Positions 15,540 through 23,386 are shown, numbered from the stretch's first letter. The stretch: DNA of 64,000 nt from Thermoleophilum album (GCF_900108055.1 NZ_FNWJ01000001.1:372001-436000); one strand, 5' to 3'. Program-made: numbers and translations. The notes: a model not told the origin generated them from the sequence alone.

Positions 15540-16127
15540 CTAGGCGGACTGGGAAACGAGTCCGACGAGCGCGTCCGTCGCCTGCTCGAACAGCGCCTCA
15601 ACCGCGTCGCGAGGCTCGTCGAAGCGCCCGAGTACCCAGCGCGAAACGACCTCGGGATCGGTCGTGTCAGGACGACCGACACCGATCCGCAAGCGCCAGA
15701 AGTCGGGGCTTCCAAGCGCCGCGCGTACCGACTTGAGCCCGCGGTGACCGGCGGTTCCGCCGCCGAGCTTGGTGCGGACGACACCGAAGGGCAGGTCGAT
15801 CTCGTCGTGGCAGACGATGATCTGCTGGGGCTCGAGCCGCAGCGCTCCGCGCGCCGCGGAGACGCTGCGCCCAGAGTCGTTCATGTAGGTCATCGGCAAC
15901 AGCAGCGCCACGCGCGGACCGGCGGGACCGGCGCGACCCTCGCTGTAGAGGCCCGCGTAGCGATCGACGAAGCGTCCCAGTTGCCAGCGCTGCGCAGCTC
16001 GCCGCACGACCTCGAAACCGGCGTTGTGGCGTGTGCCCTCGTAGCGCCGGCCGGGGTTCCCGAGCCCGACGACCAGGAAATCGACCCGGGGCGATGGCGC
16101 GCGGCCGCCGCCGACCGCGGGGTTCAG
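15540..16127 (-). CDS. pth: Peptidyl-tRNA hydrolase with a non-canonical (probably CTG) start
   Basis: The product matches Pth, which cleaves peptidyl-tRNA to recycle tRNA: FLVVGLGNPGRRYEGTRHNAGFEVV with the catalytic His, PMTYMNDSG, CHDEIDLPFG, LGGGTAGHRGLKS and RIGVGRP. The first ATG/GTG/TTG in frame is GTG at 16007, which would delete the active-site His and the GLGNPG motif. Between that codon and the in-frame stop at 16143-16145 no canonical start exists. CTG at 16127 overlaps the rplY stop (CTGA), with GGAGGG about ten bases upstream, and gives 195 residues, close to the family length. CTG at 16076, which would begin directly at the conserved VVGLGNPG motif, is the other option. A sequence error is possible but would need a change in the first codons only. 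Confidence 0.85.
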   Translation of the reverse strand: MNPAVGGGRAPSPRVDFLVVGLGNPGRRYEGTRHNAGFEVVRRAAQRWQLGRFVDRYAGLYSEGRAGPAGPRVALLLPMTYMNDSGRSVSAARGALRLEPQQIIVCHDEIDLPFGVVRTKLGGGTAGHRGLKSVRAALGSPDFWRLRIGVGRPDTTDPEVVSRWVLGRFDEPRDAVEALFEQATDALVGLVSQSA

Positions 16128-16771
16128 GAGCCCTGGCCCTCCTCAGCGCCCTCGGCGCCGCCGACCTCCGGCTCCTCCTCGACCGTTTCAGCAGCCTCCT
16201 CGGCGCGGGTCGGCGGGACGATCGTCGCAACCACCGCGTCGGGGTCGCCGACCAGTGTTACGCCCTCGGGCGGCTCGACTTCGCCAAGCGTCAGCGTGCC
16301 CCCCAGCTCGAGCCGCGAGACGTCAGCGACCACGCGCTCCGGTAGCTCGCCCGCGAGCGCTTCGATCTCGACCTCCCAGAGCACGTGCTCGAGTACTCCG
16401 CCCTGTCGCACCCCGGGCGCCTCCTCACCGCCGACGAGTTCGAGCGGAACGGTGGCAGTTACGCGCTCGTCGAGTCGCACCTGCTGGAGATCGACATGTA
16501 CGACGAGGTCGCGGACCGGGTCGTGCTGCTGCTCCTTGATGACGGCCGGCATGGGTTTGCCGCCCCCAACCTTGACGTCGATGATCGTGGCTCCCTGCGC
16601 GAGCACTTGCCGCAGCCGAGTGGCGGGCACCTTGAAAGGCACCGGCTCGCGCTCGGCCCCGTAGATGATCCCGGGGATCAAACCGGCACGACGAAGCCGC
16701 CGGGACGCACGCGAGCCAAGCTCGCTGCGCTCCTCGACCTCGAGCAGTGGTCTCTTCGCCACGGGCGCCAC
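16124..16771 (-). CDS. rplY: 50S ribosomal protein bL25, CTC (long) form
   Basis: A 215-residue protein that binds 5S rRNA in the large ribosomal subunit. The N-terminal L25 domain (about 1-95) has LEVEERSELGSRASRRLRRAGLIPGIIYG and the conserved HVDLQQV. A beta-rich C-terminal TL5/CTC domain follows (about 100-190; VTATVPLELVGGEEAPGV, ELPERVVADVS). The tail is an acidic Glu-rich stretch. The gene order with pth and mfd directly after it is typical. Its stop overlaps the proposed CTG start of pth, so pth translation probably depends on rplY translation. Confidence 0.95.
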   Translation of the reverse strand: MAPVAKRPLLEVEERSELGSRASRRLRRAGLIPGIIYGAEREPVPFKVPATRLRQVLAQGATIIDVKVGGGKPMPAVIKEQQHDPVRDLVVHVDLQQVRLDERVTATVPLELVGGEEAPGVRQGGVLEHVLWEVEIEALAGELPERVVADVSRLELGGTLTLGEVEPPEGVTLVGDPDAVVATIVPPTRAEEAAETVEEEPEVGGAEGAEEGQGS

Positions 16772-16822
16772 GAGCGCGCCAGTGTAGCGACGGGCGTGGG
16801 CGGGCGGGCGGCCGCTCTCCCG

Positions 16823-18382
16823 CTAGGCACCCTGGCTGACCGCGGCGACGCGCGCCGAGTGGGGCTTGTGGGTCGCGCGGACGATCTCTACAAAGCGTAG
16901 GAGCTCGCTCTTACCGATCACTGGCAGCGACGCGCAGCACGCATGCTCGGGACGCTCCAAAAAACAGCCGTGCACGGCAGCTACCAGCGACCGCCAGCCG
17001 GCGTCGTCGCTCGGCTCCGTGAGTGCCAGGAGATCCGGTGCTTGAGGGCCGTCGAGAGCCGCTTCGGCGACGGCGCGTTTTAATCGCTCGATTTGGCCAT
17101 GCTGACCGGAGCGGAGGAGCACTACTAGCGTCAAGGGATCGTCCGCTCCCACCAGCTCGCCGTAGTCGGACAGTAGGGAGGGGTCGGCGAGAAGCACATC
17201 GCAAGGCACCAGGAGCGCGTTCGCTCGCAGTTCGAACGGCAGCCCCGCGCCCGGCGGATGCGGCCCCGCGCCCGGCGGATGCGGCTCCGCGCCCGGCGGG
17301 TGCGGCCCGGTGCGCGCGTCCCGTTCCGCGGATGCCGGCTGCTGGAGCCAGCGCGGTGCGACAGGATCAATGCCGATCCTCACACAAAGCGTCCGAAACA
17401 GCTCAAACTCGGACGCCCCGAAGGGGTTGGCGGCGATCGCGCGCGCCGCCAGCCGCATCGCCGGTTCGATAGCTCCGGCGGCGAGCGCCGAGCGGCCGCG
17501 GTCGAGCGCCAGCGCTGCCCGCCGCCGGGCAGCGCCGTCGACCGTTAAGAGCTCCTCGACGGGAAGCTGCGCGCGCTCGCCCACCAGCTCGAGCGAGCGC
17601 AGGAACGCGATCACCCCGGCGGCGATGTCGCTCGCCTGGGCTGACGAGAGATCGAACTCGCCCAGCAGCTTGCGCCGGAAGGGCAACTCTCGACGCAGCA
17701 ACTCGATGGCCCGCTCACCGCTGGCCCCGAGGTTCATGTTGCGGCCGTGCCAGCGGTAGCGGTAGCCACGGGTCGGCAGGTAGTCGATCTCGGCGACCTC
17801 GGCAATCCGCGCCGCTATCCACCAATCCTCCCAGGCACAGTCGGCCGGTAACGGCGCGAAGCGTTCGCGAAACGTCATGCGGACGCTCAGTGCGCCGCCC
17901 GAGATGAAGTTGCCCCGCAACAGCGGTCCAAGCACGCGGCCGCGTCGCGGCCGGTGGCCCGTCGCCGCCCAAAACGAGGGCTCGATCACCCGGCCGTCGG
18001 CGTCGATCACCTCCATGTCGGAGTAGACCAGCGCGACTTGCGGTCGCTGGATGAGCGCCTCGACGTGCGTGCGAACCCGATCGGGGGGCCACTCGTCGTC
18101 ACCCGAGAGCAACATCAGGATTTCCCCGTCGACCTCCGCAAGGCCCCGGTTGAAGGCGCTGACCAGGCCGCCGTGCGGCTGGCGTACGTAGACGAGACGG
18201 TCGCGGTAGGGGGCGACGAGCGCGGGCGTGCGATCCGGCGATCCGTCGTCAACGACTACGACCTGCAGCAGCTCGCGGGGATAATCCTGGGCTAGCGCGC
18301 TCTCGATTGCCCGCACGATGAAGCGCTCGAAGCGGTAGCTCACGATCAGGCAGCTAACGCGGGGCAGGCCGGCAGCGCTCAC
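16823..18382 (-). CDS. Family 2 glycosyltransferase with extra C-terminal domain
   Basis: A 519-residue cytoplasmic or membrane-associated glycosyltransferase. Residues 1-230 form a GT-A fold: VSCLIVSYRFERFIVRAIES, VVVVDDGSPDRT, HGGLVSAFNRGL, LLSGDDEW (DxD-type metal and sugar-nucleotide site) and CAWEDWWIA (acceptor-site ED). A helical region is followed by a linker of three PHPPGA-type repeats near residue 360-380, then a Rossmann-like C-terminal module (FELRANALLVPCDVLL; LTLVVLLRSGQ). GTG at 18382 overlaps the HAD gene stop (GTGA). It is the last gene of a five-gene coupled cassette; donor and acceptor are unknown. Confidence 0.83.
   Translation of the reverse strand: MSAAGLPRVSCLIVSYRFERFIVRAIESALAQDYPRELLQVVVVDDGSPDRTPALVAPYRDRLVYVRQPHGGLVSAFNRGLAEVDGEILMLLSGDDEWPPDRVRTHVEALIQRPQVALVYSDMEVIDADGRVIEPSFWAATGHRPRRGRVLGPLLRGNFISGGALSVRMTFRERFAPLPADCAWEDWWIAARIAEVAEIDYLPTRGYRYRWHGRNMNLGASGERAIELLRRELPFRRKLLGEFDLSSAQASDIAAGVIAFLRSLELVGERAQLPVEELLTVDGAARRRAALALDRGRSALAAGAIEPAMRLAARAIAANPFGASEFELFRTLCVRIGIDPVAPRWLQQPASAERDARTGPHPPGAEPHPPGAGPHPPGAGLPFELRANALLVPCDVLLADPSLLSDYGELVGADDPLTLVVLLRSGQHGQIERLKRAVAEAALDGPQAPDLLALTEPSDDAGWRSLVAAVHGCFLERPEHACCASLPVIGKSELLRFVEIVRATHKPHSARVAAVSQGA
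17244..17306 (-). repeat. Three tandem 21-bp coding repeats
   Basis: Three units (17244-17264, 17265-17285, 17286-17306) of a 21-bp sequence. The first two are identical; the third has two substitutions. They encode the PHPPGA-type linker between the two halves of the glycosyltransferase and keep the frame. Confidence 0.85.
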
Positions 18383-18960
18383 CGGTCCCACCCCTCCCAG
18401 CGCACGCCGACGGCGTCCACGGGCAGGAAGGGCACACCCGCCGAACGCGCACAGGCGGCGTCGACGGCCGAGTCGCCCACCAACAGCGCGCGGTCAGGTG
18501 TGCAGTCGCTGCTAGCCAGGATGCGCCAGAGGCCGTGCGCTGCCGGCTTCGCCGGCGCCTCGCCGCGAGCGACGATGATCGCGACCCGCCCGGCCAGTCC
18601 CGCGCGGGCGAGCGCGGTGCGTGCGGCGGCGCGTCCGTTGAGGGTCAACACCGCGAGACCGGCTTGCGGTTGCCGTTTGCGAAGCCATTCGAGGAGCGCC
18701 GCGTTGAGCTGGCAACGCGCCGCCGCCTCGCGCTCGTGGAGGGCGACCAGCGCGTCGAGCCGGCTCGCGGCAGCCGCTGCTAGCGGCTGCCCGGCTGCTC
18801 GCAGCGCGTCGATTGTCGACAACACACCGGGACGCGCAACAGCGACGCCAGCGGCGCGCGCCCAGGCGCGCGCGATCGCACGCAGCGAGACCCAGTCGAC
18901 GTCGAGCCGCGCGAGCGTCCCATCGAGATCGAGGACGACGAGCTCCGGGGGCACCCTCAT
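18379..18960 (-). CDS. HAD-superfamily phosphatase
   Basis: A 193-residue HAD hydrolase. Motif I is VVLDLDGTLA with nucleophile D11 and acid/base D13. Motif II is LTLNG, motif III the Lys in APAKPAAHGL, and motif IV VGDSAVDAACA. A helical cap lies between motifs I and II (about 18-90). This is the phosphoglycolate-phosphatase-like (subfamily I) layout, so it is a small-molecule phosphatase, probably acting on a sugar phosphate given its neighbours. It overlaps the upstream ATP-grasp gene (ATGA) and the downstream glycosyltransferase (GTGA), so all three are translated in a coupled manner. Confidence 0.85.
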   Translation of the reverse strand: MRVPPELVVLDLDGTLARLDVDWVSLRAIARAWARAAGVAVARPGVLSTIDALRAAGQPLAAAAASRLDALVALHEREAAARCQLNAALLEWLRKRQPQAGLAVLTLNGRAAARTALARAGLAGRVAIIVARGEAPAKPAAHGLWRILASSDCTPDRALLVGDSAVDAACARSAGVPFLPVDAVGVRWEGWDR

Positions 18961-20009
18961 GCGTAGACGTGGGCGCGCGCTCGCAGCTCGCTCGCACGGC
19001 GCAGGAGCGCGGGACAGTCGATGTGACGGATCCAGTACAGACCTTCGGGGAGCCGTGCCAGATCCGCCGGCGAGGGGCGCTCGCCGAAAGCCATGCGCAC
19101 GTAGAGGTGCGGGATGTTCAAGCCGGCGGCGGTGAAGAAGTAGCTGGTCGTGAAGAAGCGCCCGCAGTTGATCTCCGTCGGCCGCGGCACACCCTCCGCG
19201 TCCTCCTTCAAGTCGACGCAGAAGATCCCGGTGGCACGCGGGTCGATGGCGCGTACGGCGCGCACCGCGAGCTGCTCGACATCCGGTCGGTCGCGGGTCA
19301 CGGCGATCGACGGCGTCCCCGTCACGCCCGACGGAGCGAGGTGCGGATAGATGTATTCGAGGCGCTCACGCACCTGTGCGCAGACCAGCTCGCCCTCGCA
19401 CCAAAGCGAGGTGAATGCGAGGTTGGCGCCCGGCAAGAGCTCCTGCGCTACGAACTCAATCGCCGGACGCGATATCTGCCAGTAGCGCAGCCAGTGCCAA
19501 CCGGCCTCTAGGTCGTGCACCGGTGTGGCCGCCAGTCCCCCAGCGCCGGCGCTCGCGCGCAGCCAGAAGGGCACTCCCAACAGTTCGGCAGCGCGCTCGA
19601 GATCCGCACGATCGCGCACCGCAAGGGAGGGAGCGCGAAGCACACCAGCGCGCTGCCAGAGTTCGCCGGAGCGGCGTTTGTCCTGGCAGATGCGGACGGT
19701 CTCCACGCTCGGCAGAAAGGTCTTCGCCGGCAACCGTTCGCGCAGCTCCGAAATCGCTCGCACCTCCGCGTCCGGCTGGGGATGGACGAAGTCGATCCGT
19801 TCTCGCTCAATCACGTCCAGCAGGAAATCGAGATAGCGCGGGTCGTCGCAGGGCGGCGCCTCGTACGCAGCGTCCAGTGGCGGCCACTCCAGATGAAAGC
19901 GGTTGGTGTCGGTGCCGACGATGTAGAACGGCTCCGGCGCGGCGCGCAGCGACCGCACGAAGTTGACTCCCGCAGGTCCCCCGGCACCCGTGACTAGCAC
20001 ACGGATCAC
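18957..20009 (-). CDS. ATP-grasp ligase, carbamoyl-phosphate-synthase-like
   Basis: A 350-residue ATP-grasp enzyme. It has a Rossmann-like pre-ATP domain (VIRVLVTGAGGPAGVNFVRSLR), the substrate segment (HPQPDAEVRAI), a Lys-rich nucleotide stretch (ICQDKRRSGELWQRAGV), and a C-terminal metal and ATP site (ATGIFCVDLKED; PTEINCGRFFTTS). Such enzymes ligate a carboxylate to an amine through an acyl phosphate. Single-domain versions often occur in surface-polysaccharide loci, where they add amino groups or amino acids. GTG at 20009 overlaps the Gfo/Idh stop (GTGA), so upstream frame extension is rejected. Confidence 0.82.
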   Translation of the reverse strand: MIRVLVTGAGGPAGVNFVRSLRAAPEPFYIVGTDTNRFHLEWPPLDAAYEAPPCDDPRYLDFLLDVIERERIDFVHPQPDAEVRAISELRERLPAKTFLPSVETVRICQDKRRSGELWQRAGVLRAPSLAVRDRADLERAAELLGVPFWLRASAGAGGLAATPVHDLEAGWHWLRYWQISRPAIEFVAQELLPGANLAFTSLWCEGELVCAQVRERLEYIYPHLAPSGVTGTPSIAVTRDRPDVEQLAVRAVRAIDPRATGIFCVDLKEDAEGVPRPTEINCGRFFTTSYFFTAAGLNIPHLYVRMAFGERPSPADLARLPEGLYWIRHIDCPALLRRASELRARAHVYA

Positions 20010-21019
20010 GCGGCGAGGGCCTCCCCGTCGACGGCAGCGATAGCGGCGCGCGCCGACCGCTGGAGCCGCTCGACCACTTCCAAACAGCGGATGCCCTCGG
20101 CGATGCCGACCTCCGGGCTGCGCCGCTCGCGCACACACTCGAGGAACGAGGCGAGTTGCGCGACGAGCGGTTCTTCTGGTGGCACGAACACGCGCTCGAC
20201 GATGCTCTCTTGGCGGTAGGTGCGGGAGTCGCGCCGGTCACTGCGCAGGCTGGTCGAGCGGCAGATCTCGATCGTGCGCCGCACGTAGTCGAGCGTGACG
20301 TAGGAGTCGTCGGTGGTAACGGCCAATCGGCGCACCTTCTCCTCGGTCACGCGGCTCGCGCAGAGCGCTGCGATCAACCCGTCAGCGAACGCGAAGGTGG
20401 CGACAGCGTGGTCGGCGCGACTCGCGCTGCGCACCGAGCGGGCGACCGCGGCAGCGTGCACCAACGGCGCGCGTGCCAACGACAGCAGCACGTGGATGTC
20501 GTGGAGCATCAGGTCCTGGATAACGTCGCTGTCACCGATCCGACCGTCCCAGGGACTCAAGCGCTGCATTTCGAGGGCCACCAGGGCGCGATCGCCGACC
20601 AGCTTGCGCAGTTCCCGCACCGCGGGGTTGAAATGCTCGATGTGACCGACCTGGACGATCGCACGAGGACCGCACGCCGCTGCTGCTTGCTCGACGAGGC
20701 GCGCCTGCGCGACGCCGAGGGCGAGCGGTTTCTCGACCAGCACATCGCAGCCGCGCTCGAGCGCCCTTACCGTGTGTTCCACGTGCAGAGCGCTGGGCGA
20801 GGCGATCGAGACGGCGTCTACGCGGTCCAGCAACTCGTCCAGGGAGGCACAAACGAAGGCACCGGTGCGCGCTGCTACCGCGCGCGCCCGCATCGAGTTG
20901 GGGTCGTGCACCGCGACGAGCTCGCAAAGGTGCGGCAGCGACGCATAGGCGCGCGCGTGGTGGGCGCCCATGTTGCCGGCGCCGACCACGCCGACGCGGA
21001 TGCGCCGCGCGCCTCCCAT
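20006..21019 (-). CDS. Gfo/Idh/MocA-family NAD(P)-dependent oxidoreductase
   Basis: A 337-residue sugar-type dehydrogenase. The N-terminal Rossmann domain has VGVVGAGNMGAHHARAY. The family motif EKPLA is in CDVLVEKPLALG. The C-terminal alpha/beta domain has GHIEHFNPAVRELR and a catalytic-region His (LMLHDIHVLLSLA). Relatives oxidise or reduce NDP-sugars or free sugars; the HxEHFNPA pattern is seen in sugar-nucleotide 3-dehydrogenase-like members. ATG at 21019 shares one base with the stop of the methyltransferase gene. The much longer upstream frame is out of phase with that gene and rejected. Confidence 0.86.
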   Translation of the reverse strand: MGGARRIRVGVVGAGNMGAHHARAYASLPHLCELVAVHDPNSMRARAVAARTGAFVCASLDELLDRVDAVSIASPSALHVEHTVRALERGCDVLVEKPLALGVAQARLVEQAAAACGPRAIVQVGHIEHFNPAVRELRKLVGDRALVALEMQRLSPWDGRIGDSDVIQDLMLHDIHVLLSLARAPLVHAAAVARSVRSASRADHAVATFAFADGLIAALCASRVTEEKVRRLAVTTDDSYVTLDYVRRTIEICRSTSLRSDRRDSRTYRQESIVERVFVPPEEPLVAQLASFLECVRERRSPEVGIAEGIRCLEVVERLQRSARAAIAAVDGEALAA

Positions 21020-21750
21020 CAGCTGCCCCCTAGCGGGCTCTGCACGCCACTGGCGGGCACCTGCGCGATCGCCACGATCTCGGCCGCGATCTGCGGATAG
21101 CGACGACCAAGCTCGAAATAGGCGCGGATCAACGCCTCGCCCCACTGGCGTTCGATCTGGTCGTTCGGCAGCGGCTTGAGGAAGACACCGTCGAGGTGGT
21201 CGACGACCAGCCCGGCCGTCTGGAGGTCGCGCAACAACGTCGTCCGCGTGTAGACGCGGCGGTGTCCGATCCGTAGATCCTGCTCGTCGAGCGCCGTGAC
21301 GTCTTCGATCAGGCCGAGCTCGACCCCCGCTTGACGGTGTAGCGAGTCGGCGTTGGGCACCGTCACCACGAGCCGCCCGCCCGGGCGCGCACAGGCGGCT
21401 GCCCGCGCTAGCAGCGCCACCGGATCGGCGACATGCTCGAGCACATGCGCCAACACCACGACGTCGTACGTTGCATCCGCCTGGTACTGCTCGAAAAGCG
21501 CGTGCACGACCTCGACGTCGGGGCAACGTCGACGCGTCCGCCGCACCTGCTCGAGTGAACCGTCGACCGCCGTCAGACGCTTGACGACGCGGCGCAAGCG
21601 CTCGGTCATGCGACCGTCGGCACAACCGAGCTCGAGACAGCGCTCAGCGCCACGCACCCACGGAGCGATCACCTCGAAGCGGAAGTCGACGAGGCGGGCG
21701 TTGAAGCCGTGGTCGGTGGAGAAGTCGCGAGCTACCCGCTCAAGGCGCAT
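21019..21750 (-). CDS. SAM-dependent class I methyltransferase
   Basis: A 243-residue class I methyltransferase. Motif I is CLELGCADGRMTERL (about 38-52), the acidic SAM-ribose residue is in LTAVDGS, motif II is YDVVVLAHVLEHV and motif III PGGRLVVTVPN. The rest (HRQAGVELGLIEDVTALDEQDLRIGHRRVYT) resembles sugar- or small-molecule methyltransferases in polysaccharide loci. The ATG at 21750 is the first gene of the cassette, facing the AarF kinase gene across 229 bp of upstream DNA. The ribosome site is weak, so the start is uncertain by a few codons. Confidence 0.84.
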   Translation of the reverse strand: MRLERVARDFSTDHGFNARLVDFRFEVIAPWVRGAERCLELGCADGRMTERLRRVVKRLTAVDGSLEQVRRTRRRCPDVEVVHALFEQYQADATYDVVVLAHVLEHVADPVALLARAAACARPGGRLVVTVPNADSLHRQAGVELGLIEDVTALDEQDLRIGHRRVYTRTTLLRDLQTAGLVVDHLDGVFLKPLPNDQIERQWGEALIRAYFELGRRYPQIAAEIVAIAQVPASGVQSPLGGS

Positions 21751-21979
21751 GGTCTCGTCTTCGCCGCAGCTTTGGCGGCGACCGTCCCTGACCGTCGCGC
21801 TGTTCGCCCGCGCAACACTCCTCATTGCACTGATTGCTGATCTCCCCATCAGGCCGCTCCCGCGAGCGCGGCGCGCAAGCGTGCGCCCGGGTGCCCACGT
21901 AGTCGGAGCAGGCGCAGCGAGCTTGAAGCTGCGAGCGCCCCTCCGCCGCGGCCGGGTGAGACGGCCTACGCTTGAGCGA

Positions 21980-23386
21980 GTGGCGAAGGACGAGCTCCCG
22001 CGTGGGCGGCTGCGACGCACCGTCGCTGTCGGCTCGGTGCTCGGGCGCGAGGGCGCGCGCTACGCGACGACGCGTGCGCGCAACCTGGCGCGCTCCGAGG
22101 AAGAGGCGCGTCGCGCGCTCGAGAACGTTCACCTCGAGACCGCCGAGCGAATGGTGGAGACGCTCGGCCGCATGAAGGGTGCGGCGCTCAAGCTTGGCCA
22201 GCTCGCCTCGTTCGTCGACACCGAGTTCTTGCCGCCCGAGTACGCCGAGCTCTATCAGCGCAAGCTGGCGAAGCTACGCGCCCACGCTCCGGCGATGCCG
22301 TGGCGGAAGGTTCGCAAGGTGCTCGAGCAGGAGCTTGAGATGCCACTCTCCGAAGCCTTCGCCGCGATCGACGAGGAGGCTGCAGCAGCGGCTTCGATCG
22401 GCCAGGTCCACCGCGCGCGCCTGCACGACGGTCGCGAGGTGGCGGTCAAGGTGCAGTACCCGGGGATCGCCGAGGCGCTACGTGCCGACCTTCAGAACGC
22501 GGGCGTGGTGTTGCGTTTCGCGAAAGCGATCGCGCCCGGCCTCGACGCGCGAGCGGTCGCCCGCGAGCTGCGCGAACGTTTCGAAGAGGAGCTCGACTAC
22601 GAGCTCGAGGCGCAGCGCCAGCGCACGTTCGCGCGCGCCTACCGCGGGCATCCGTTCATCTACATCCCGGACGTCATAACGCGCCTGTCGCGACGGTTGG
22701 TGCTCGTCACGGAGTGGGTCGAGGGCCACGACTTCGAGCACGTGCTCCGCCTCCCGCAAGCGCAGCGCGACCGCTTCGGGGAGATCGTGTTCCGCTACCA
22801 CTACGGCTCGATCTATCACCTGCAGCAGTTCAACGCCGACGCTCATCCCGGCAACTACCTGCTGATGAACGATGGGCGCGTCGCCTTTCTCGATTTCGGG
22901 ATGACCAAGCAGCTCGACCACGAGCAGATCCAGCTCGAGGTGGCGGCGCTCGAAGCCGTGATCGCGGGCGATCCCGAGCGAGCGCGGCGAGCCCTGCACG
23001 AACTTGGCTTTCTGCCGAACCCCAGCAAAGTCGACGCGGAGCGCCTGATGGAGCACGTGCGAGCGGTCGCCGGCTGGTACCTCGAGGATCGTGAGGTGAC
23101 GATCGACCCACCGCTCGTAATGCGCGTGATCGCGGCGATGTCGGACCCGCGCTCGGGCTTCTACGACTTGCTGCGGCGCGAGAGCTTGCCCGCCAACGAA
23201 CTCCTCGGTCGGCGCATGGAGACCGGCGTCTTGGCGGTGCTCGGCAAGCTCCGGGCTACCCGCAACTGGCATCGGATCGGCCGCGAGTGGTGGTTCGGCG
23301 AGGAGCCCGCGACCGAGCTCGGTGAAGCGGAGTGGGAGTTCTTCGAGCAGCGCGGTACGCGACGCGAACCGCTGGTGCGCCGCTGA
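21980..23386 (+). CDS. AarF/UbiB (ABC1) family atypical kinase
   Basis: A 468-residue ADCK/UbiB-like protein. The family-specific KxGQ motif is in MKGAALKLGQLASF, and the Ala-rich loop that replaces the glycine loop is AAAAASIGQVHRA. Also present are the ATP-binding Lys (VAVKVQYPG), the catalytic loop QFNADAHPGNYLL and the metal motif FLDFGMTKQ. Bacterial relatives support quinone or isoprenoid-lipid metabolism. GTG at 21980 is used; longer frames upstream overlap the divergent methyltransferase. It is the only plus-strand gene between the two halves of the glmU-mfd cluster. Confidence 0.9.
   Translation: MAKDELPRGRLRRTVAVGSVLGREGARYATTRARNLARSEEEARRALENVHLETAERMVETLGRMKGAALKLGQLASFVDTEFLPPEYAELYQRKLAKLRAHAPAMPWRKVRKVLEQELEMPLSEAFAAIDEEAAAAASIGQVHRARLHDGREVAVKVQYPGIAEALRADLQNAGVVLRFAKAIAPGLDARAVARELRERFEEELDYELEAQRQRTFARAYRGHPFIYIPDVITRLSRRLVLVTEWVEGHDFEHVLRLPQAQRDRFGEIVFRYHYGSIYHLQQFNADAHPGNYLLMNDGRVAFLDFGMTKQLDHEQIQLEVAALEAVIAGDPERARRALHELGFLPNPSKVDAERLMEHVRAVAGWYLEDREVTIDPPLVMRVIAAMSDPRSGFYDLLRRESLPANELLGRRMETGVLAVLGKLRATRNWHRIGREWWFGEEPATELGEAEWEFFEQRGTRREPLVRR

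Follow-up and report, generated by a model that had tools for sequence, protein, structure and literature searches.

Five consecutive genes on the minus strand of Thermoleophilum album (positions 21750-16823 of the window, i.e. the whole 64,000-nt stretch NZ_FNWJ01000001.1:372001-436000 of assembly GCF_900108055.1) form a mobile, genus-specific operon which is most likely devoted to glycans. They encode, in this order, a SAM-dependent methyltransferase, a Gfo/Idh dehydrogenase, an ATP-grasp ligase, a HAD hydrolase and a GT2 glycosyltransferase. With about even confidence, we regard the operon as a horizontally spread set of genes for surface-glycan decoration that the ancestor of the genus acquired by a single insertion between aarF and rplY, and whose chemistry would comprise oxidation, amide formation, dephosphorylation, methylation and transfer. 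This explanation is supported by the conserved gene order, the insertion, the predicted fold and residues of the ligase, the HAD motifs and the recurrence of the ligase-HAD pair; against it stands the dehydrogenase, which scores far below the equivalog cut-off of its nearest family. The first-pass annotation had read the genes as a cassette for an unusual sugar, and this reading held in that they constitute one conserved operon with parts typical of surface-glycan clusters.

Coordinates of the operon genes and of the neighbouring features in the window.
Feature	Position	Strand	Basis
SAM-dependent methyltransferase, 243 aa, operon gene 1	21019..21750	-	Pfam Methyltransf_23
Gfo/Idh/MocA dehydrogenase, 337 aa	20006..21019	-	PF01408
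ATP-grasp ligase, 350 aa, GTG start	18957..20009	-	NF009402, fold model, Foldseek
HAD hydrolase, 193 aa	18379..18960	-	HAD_2, four catalytic motifs
GT2 glycosyltransferase with C-terminal extension, 519 aa, GTG start	16823..18382	-	PF00535
Divergent intergenic region operon/aarF, 229 bp, presumed promoter region	21751..21979	.	Sequence
aarF-like kinase gene, upstream border of the insertion	21980..23386	+	Gene order in relatives
rplY, downstream border of the insertion, 51 nt past the operon	16124..16771	-	Same strand as operon

All five open reading frames and the four previously described overlaps (TGATG, GTGA, ATGA and GTGA, in this order) were present in the window sequence. The five family names were borne out by HMM searches and, in the case of the ATP-grasp protein, also by a fold model and Foldseek. 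Overlaps of 1 or 4 nt at four of four junctions are well above the local rate, as they occurred in about 5 of 32-34 other same-strand gene pairs of the window (a background taken from a rough gene call). Such overlaps are expected of any tight operon and are uninformative on protein ratios. They were preserved with changed letters in three other genomes; in G001, the sister species, a small gap replaces one of the overlaps. As the junctions vary in this way, the earlier proposal that the overlaps fix the ratio of the five proteins was rejected. Between the operon and rplY, on the same strand, lie only 51 nt (16772-16822), and the inserted operon may therefore contribute to transcription of rplY-pth-mfd.

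In the sister species, glmU-prs, aarF on the opposite strand, the five genes and rplY-pth-mfd were all kept (55-96% identity). The five cassette proteins of the two species are about 55-77% identical, and both flanks are syntenic. Twelve relatives of the same family were read at this site, and all lacked the cassette. In eight of them aarF adjoins rplY in the same orientation, with about 95-165 nt between the matched ends; the start of AarF in the window was set at 21980 from its likeness to start sites in relatives. No aarF match was found at the site in the remaining four (G004, G007, G009 and G020). What lies between prs and rplY differs within the family: prs directly precedes rplY in G009, and other genes are inserted in G004 and G020. 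Since aarF adjoins rplY in most same-family relatives checked, it is the ancestral neighbour and only the five genes are new. Hence, of the earlier statement that the cassette together with AarF separates the two clusters, the insertion of the cassette stood, and AarF as a part of the insertion was rejected. The block is cleanly inserted between these two genes, aarF and rplY, only in this genus, which answers the previously raised question of whether it is clade-specific. The GC content of the cassette (0.697) matches that of the flanks (0.694-0.704); thus, the insertion does not look recent, and the idea of a recent, compositionally foreign island was discarded.

A search for close orthologues of the ligase gave hits in the three genomes from this genus and none in the 58 other members of the family or order that it covered. 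Among 399 sampled Thermoleophilia genomes, four contained a ligase scoring above the threshold of 500 bits; more distant ligases of the G372 type (108-124 bits) were left out of this orthologue count. In one genome (G002) the block is located on a short contig, where it runs from the last part of the Gfo gene to a point within the GT2 gene. Co-occurrence of the five families in the same order, which the first-pass annotation had suggested looking for, was seen in two further lineages of the class: HOG38 possesses all five genes in identical order at a different locus, and Prado031 the first four (methyltransferase to HAD) up to the contig end. On its upstream side the HOG38 cassette borders on the end of a GGDEF gene and not on aarF. 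For this reason the closeness to glmU, to which meaning had previously been assigned, is probably incidental. The occurrence of the five genes as one unit at different places argues both against chance and against a need for the glmU neighbourhood. Scattering of the same families in relatives had been named as a possible objection. For the methyltransferase, dehydrogenase and ligase no close counterparts were found in the relatives searched, and the objection applies to the GT2 family alone, which has relatives (37-45% identical) at other loci in same-family genomes.

The methyltransferase matched Pfam Methyltransf_23 (1.1e-25), and its best solved relative was 2p7h (132 bits). It is 69% identical to the copy of the sister species, 56-58% to those of Prado031 and HOG38, 47% to that of a groundwater bacterium (L074) and 40% to an Aenigmatarchaeota copy. 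Its relatives are found in aminosugar or glycan clusters with DegT, FdtA and glycosyltransferase genes. The dehydrogenase matched PF01408 (GFO_IDH_MocA; 4.5e-29). Its best-scoring NCBIfam model was the UDP-GlcNAc 3-dehydrogenase equivalog NF040723 (188 bits, cut-off 450), and it reached 135 bits with 7bvj, which we take to be GnnA of Acidithiobacillus. The catalytic lysine of the EKP motif and the D...HD motif are present (EKPLA and DLMLHDIH, aligned with D-L-M-x-H-D of 7bvj). By these scores, the enzyme is nearest the UDP-GlcNAc 3-dehydrogenase family, yet below the equivalog cut-off, and 3-oxidation of a UDP-HexNAc is our best guess of its reaction.

The ligase was best matched by PRK12767-type models (NCBIfam NF009402, 9.7e-27). 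With 94 bits it stayed below the curated PRK12767 cut-off of 218, and in Pfam it gave only a sub-threshold match to PylC-like_N. Its AlphaFold model (mean pLDDT 92.8) had among its best Foldseek matches 2pn1, the L-amino-acid ligases RizA, 3vot and YwfE, and GAR synthetase; a B. licheniformis enzyme is among the matched L-amino-acid ligases. These matches are carboxylate-amine ligases. The carbamoyl-phosphate-synthase-like protein 2pn1 is the closest fold match, and we know of no function for it. Residues R214, R216, D266, E279 and N281 were invariant in an alignment of 28 sequences, and D266, E279 and N281 are expected to bind Mg-ATP. An ATP-grasp fold with Mg-binding acidic residues and an asparagine is thus supported by the predicted structure. 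A link to the pseudomurein ATP-grasp group was not found for the cassette ligase.

Beyond these Thermoleophilia, the closest relatives of the ligase are that of the groundwater bacterium (57% identical) and those of archaea (46-59%), namely Methanomethylicota, Jordarchaeia, Aenigmatarchaeota, Micrarchaeota, Bathyarchaeota, Baldrarchaeum and Lokiarchaeota. In a tree of the 28 sequences, Thermoleophilia and the groundwater bacterium formed a group (99/96) inside an otherwise archaeal group (98/97). Because the relatives were gathered via two conserved peptide patterns, which biases the sampling so that unsampled bacteria could alter the tree, an archaeal source of the ligase is rated only as likely. 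A search for relatives of the groundwater bacterium (a group of three genomes) was unproductive. A close archaeal link seems visible only for the ligase and perhaps the methyltransferase, as the Gfo copies of archaea share just about 28-30% identity with the dehydrogenase of the window.

Inspection of 21 archaeal ligase loci revealed a GalE/TviC-like epimerase in 14, a GPT-type transferase (PF00953) in 13, DUF354 in 11 and the oligosaccharyltransferase STT3/AglB in six. A HAD gene was adjacent or near in ten, mostly directly after the ligase gene, and an adjacent one was absent from several. In Bathyarchaeota and Micrarchaeota the ligase gene lies beside genes for AglB and PF00953 transferases; in Lokiarchaeota its neighbours include PF00953-transferase genes. 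Genes for DegT and a UDP-GlcNAc 3-dehydrogenase-like protein are contiguous with it in Micrarchaeota and flank it in Aenigmatarchaeota. In four of four Bathyarchaeota loci (L079, L081, L084 and L088), the genes for AglB, the PF00953-type transferase and the ligase are immediately preceded by a gcvT-like gene. Distant ligase relatives followed by HAD were also detected within polysaccharide clusters on Roseibium and Haloarcula plasmids; at 25-30% identity they were used for gene neighbourhood only. The wide recurrence of the ligase-HAD pair in glycan clusters, though not at every locus, supports a role in glycans. Elsewhere in an Aenigmatarchaeota genome that also harbours a ligase locus (L072), a second cluster (L131, 1116-7460) encodes FdtA, a second ATP-grasp protein, an epimerase, a methyltransferase of the cassette type (40% identical), HAD, DegT and GT2, i.e. 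nearly the family set of the cassette with a different ligase.

The HAD protein (Pfam HAD_2, 2.3e-10) contains all four catalytic motifs in a motif alignment (DLDGT, T106, K138 and GDS..D) and is expected to remove phosphate. The GT2 protein matched PF00535 (Glycos_transf_2; 1.1e-23, residues 10-119), and nearest to it are the polysaccharide-type enzymes TuaG and chondroitin synthase. Its C-terminal part includes a short tandem repeat (17243-17310) that encodes about three copies of HPPGAG/E; in the sister species, low-complexity repeats of another kind (GAGAGAG) are found at the N-terminus of GT2.

In the proposed pathway, the dehydrogenase would oxidize C3 of UDP-GlcNAc or a near relative. 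At the expense of ATP, the ligase might then link a sugar amine or carboxylate through an amide bond to a small and probably phosphorylated partner. HAD would strip the phosphate from this product, the methyltransferase would methylate it, and GT2 might pass the completed sugar on to an acceptor, which could be a lipid, a polysaccharide or a protein. Here we infer all substrates, the order of the steps, any amino-group source and the acceptor. UDP-GlcNAc, previously suggested as the starting compound supplied by GlmU, is a reasonable substrate given the nearest family of the dehydrogenase; the proximity to glmU is probably without weight, given the different locus in HOG38. Either amination or amidation had been envisaged. 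The latter is retained as the proposed reaction of the ATP-grasp enzyme, and the former finds no aminotransferase within the cassette, though related clusters have one; any amino group would come from an aminotransferase encoded elsewhere. The window's assembly (95.6% complete) had no PF02516 match for an STT3 oligosaccharyltransferase, so the protein-glycosylation context of the archaeal loci is not directly transferable.

The nearest working precedent is the Cj1438/Cj1435 pair of the Campylobacter HS:2 capsule. In C. jejuni, serinol-phosphate or ethanolamine-phosphate is coupled to a glucuronic acid by the ATP-grasp domain of Cj1438, the HAD protein Cj1435 takes the phosphate off the amide product, and Cj1438 attaches the following sugar with its GT2 domain (PMC11800379). 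The chemistry proposed for the cassette is alike in that ATP-grasp, HAD and GT2 would act together on a glycan, with an amide made from a phosphorylated amine and then dephosphorylated, and in the cassette HAD and GT2 are paired with the ligase as adjacent overlapping genes, as a Cj1438C-type system requires. The Campylobacter set differs in that ligase and GT2 are one protein, Gfo/Idh and methyltransferase are lacking, and Cj1438C is TupA-like. The cassette ligase had no Pfam match to the TupA-like ATP-grasp domain at E 0.001, and membership in the Cj1438C family was rejected. Similarly, the GnnA/GnnB system for UDP-GlcNAc3N (lipid A diaminosugar) shares with the cassette the nearest family of gene 2, the NAD-dependent UDP-GlcNAc 3-dehydrogenases. 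However, a GnnB-type aminotransferase is missing from the cassette, which adds ligase, HAD and methyltransferase, and membership was rejected on 188 of 450 bits and on strong DegT genes located only at C1:641877 and C2:537946. Pathways with UDP-GlcNAcA 3-dehydrogenases of the WlbA/WbpB type resemble the cassette in having, within a surface-polysaccharide cluster, a Gfo/Idh enzyme for a UDP-sugar. The lookalike in this genome is a separate cluster (C1:699k-703k) with WecB-like, WecC-like and Gfo/Idh genes in a row, whose Gfo/Idh paralogue is 32% identical to the cassette enzyme; this cluster is a possible source of uronate for the cassette. The archaeal ATP-grasp-HAD pairs have in common with the cassette the ligase subfamily, a HAD often placed directly after it and the glycan setting; they differ in being accompanied by an epimerase and DUF354 where the cassette has methyltransferase and GT2, and in the oligosaccharyltransferase that the window genome lacks.

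As the cassette has no aminotransferase, two versions of the chemistry are conceivable: a 3-amino sugar may be acylated, or a uronate may be amidated. The first is a more specific version of our preferred explanation, and we consider it rather unlikely in this exact form: a DegT enzyme encoded elsewhere would aminate the 3-keto sugar, the ligase would add an amino or hydroxy acid to the 3-amino group, and HAD would dephosphorylate the acid part. It follows GnnA/GnnB chemistry (PMC5644692), and DegT and Gfo/Idh genes flank the ligase in three loci (L072, L090 and L106), with DegT also present in clusters L108 and L161. The window genome itself has two strong DegT genes, but these are found next to a WbpM-like gene and within a cluster of amino-acid genes and may serve other purposes, and no Thermoleophilia cassette has DegT in the operon (the contigs of Prado031, HOG38 and G002 being short). 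The second version, in which the ligase equips the carboxylate of a uronic acid such as ManNAcA with an amino acid or an amino alcohol phosphate and Gfo/Idh acts on a UDP-uronate, we hold to be unlikely. The Cj1438C/Cj1435 precedent (PMC11800379) speaks for it, as do the WecB-WecC-Gfo cluster, which should yield UDP-ManNAcA-type sugars, and the Haloarcula ligase-HAD pair, which is accompanied by WecB and a nucleotide-sugar dehydrogenase. Yet the ligase falls outside the TupA-like family in Pfam, a UDP-sugar 6-dehydrogenase is absent from the cassette, and on UDP-GlcNAc 3-dehydrogenase models the cassette Gfo scores 188 bits versus 160 for the WecC-linked paralogue.

Natural-product clusters contain ATP-grasp, Gfo/Idh, methyltransferase and HAD enzymes, and the operon product might thus be a small secreted metabolite or compatible solute instead of a surface glycan. 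This is improbable in view of the polysaccharide-type relatives of GT2, the location of ligase relatives in glycan clusters and a cassette free of transporter and carrier-protein genes. A chance neighbourhood of five genes from families common in bacteria, without a shared pathway and with GT2 relatives at other loci, is strongly disfavoured and hardly credible because gene order and overlaps are kept in divergent genomes at no fewer than two loci, with nearly all intervening relatives lacking the cassette.

No pathway with these five enzymes was found in the open-licence literature searched, in line with the earlier remark that the combination is not a named pathway, nor was a description of the archaeal ligase-HAD pair. 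The five-gene combination is undescribed in the open literature searched. As a tentative extension of the preferred surface-glycan explanation, ATP-grasp and HAD might be the core of a so far undescribed glycan-amidation module that is widely shared and serves in archaeal glycosylation; this module would have passed from archaea to a few Thermoleophilia and been joined there with methyltransferase, dehydrogenase and GT2 in a self-contained operon for an undescribed sugar.

If the explanation is correct, the operon would be a documented case in which glycan genes have probably moved between archaea and bacteria. Of greatest interest is the tie that it would make between a compact five-gene bacterial operon and an uncharacterised ligase subfamily found beside the glycosylation genes of uncultured archaea. 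As the bacterial operon could be expressed and assayed as a unit, the glycan chemistry of these archaea would become partly testable via bacterial enzymes.
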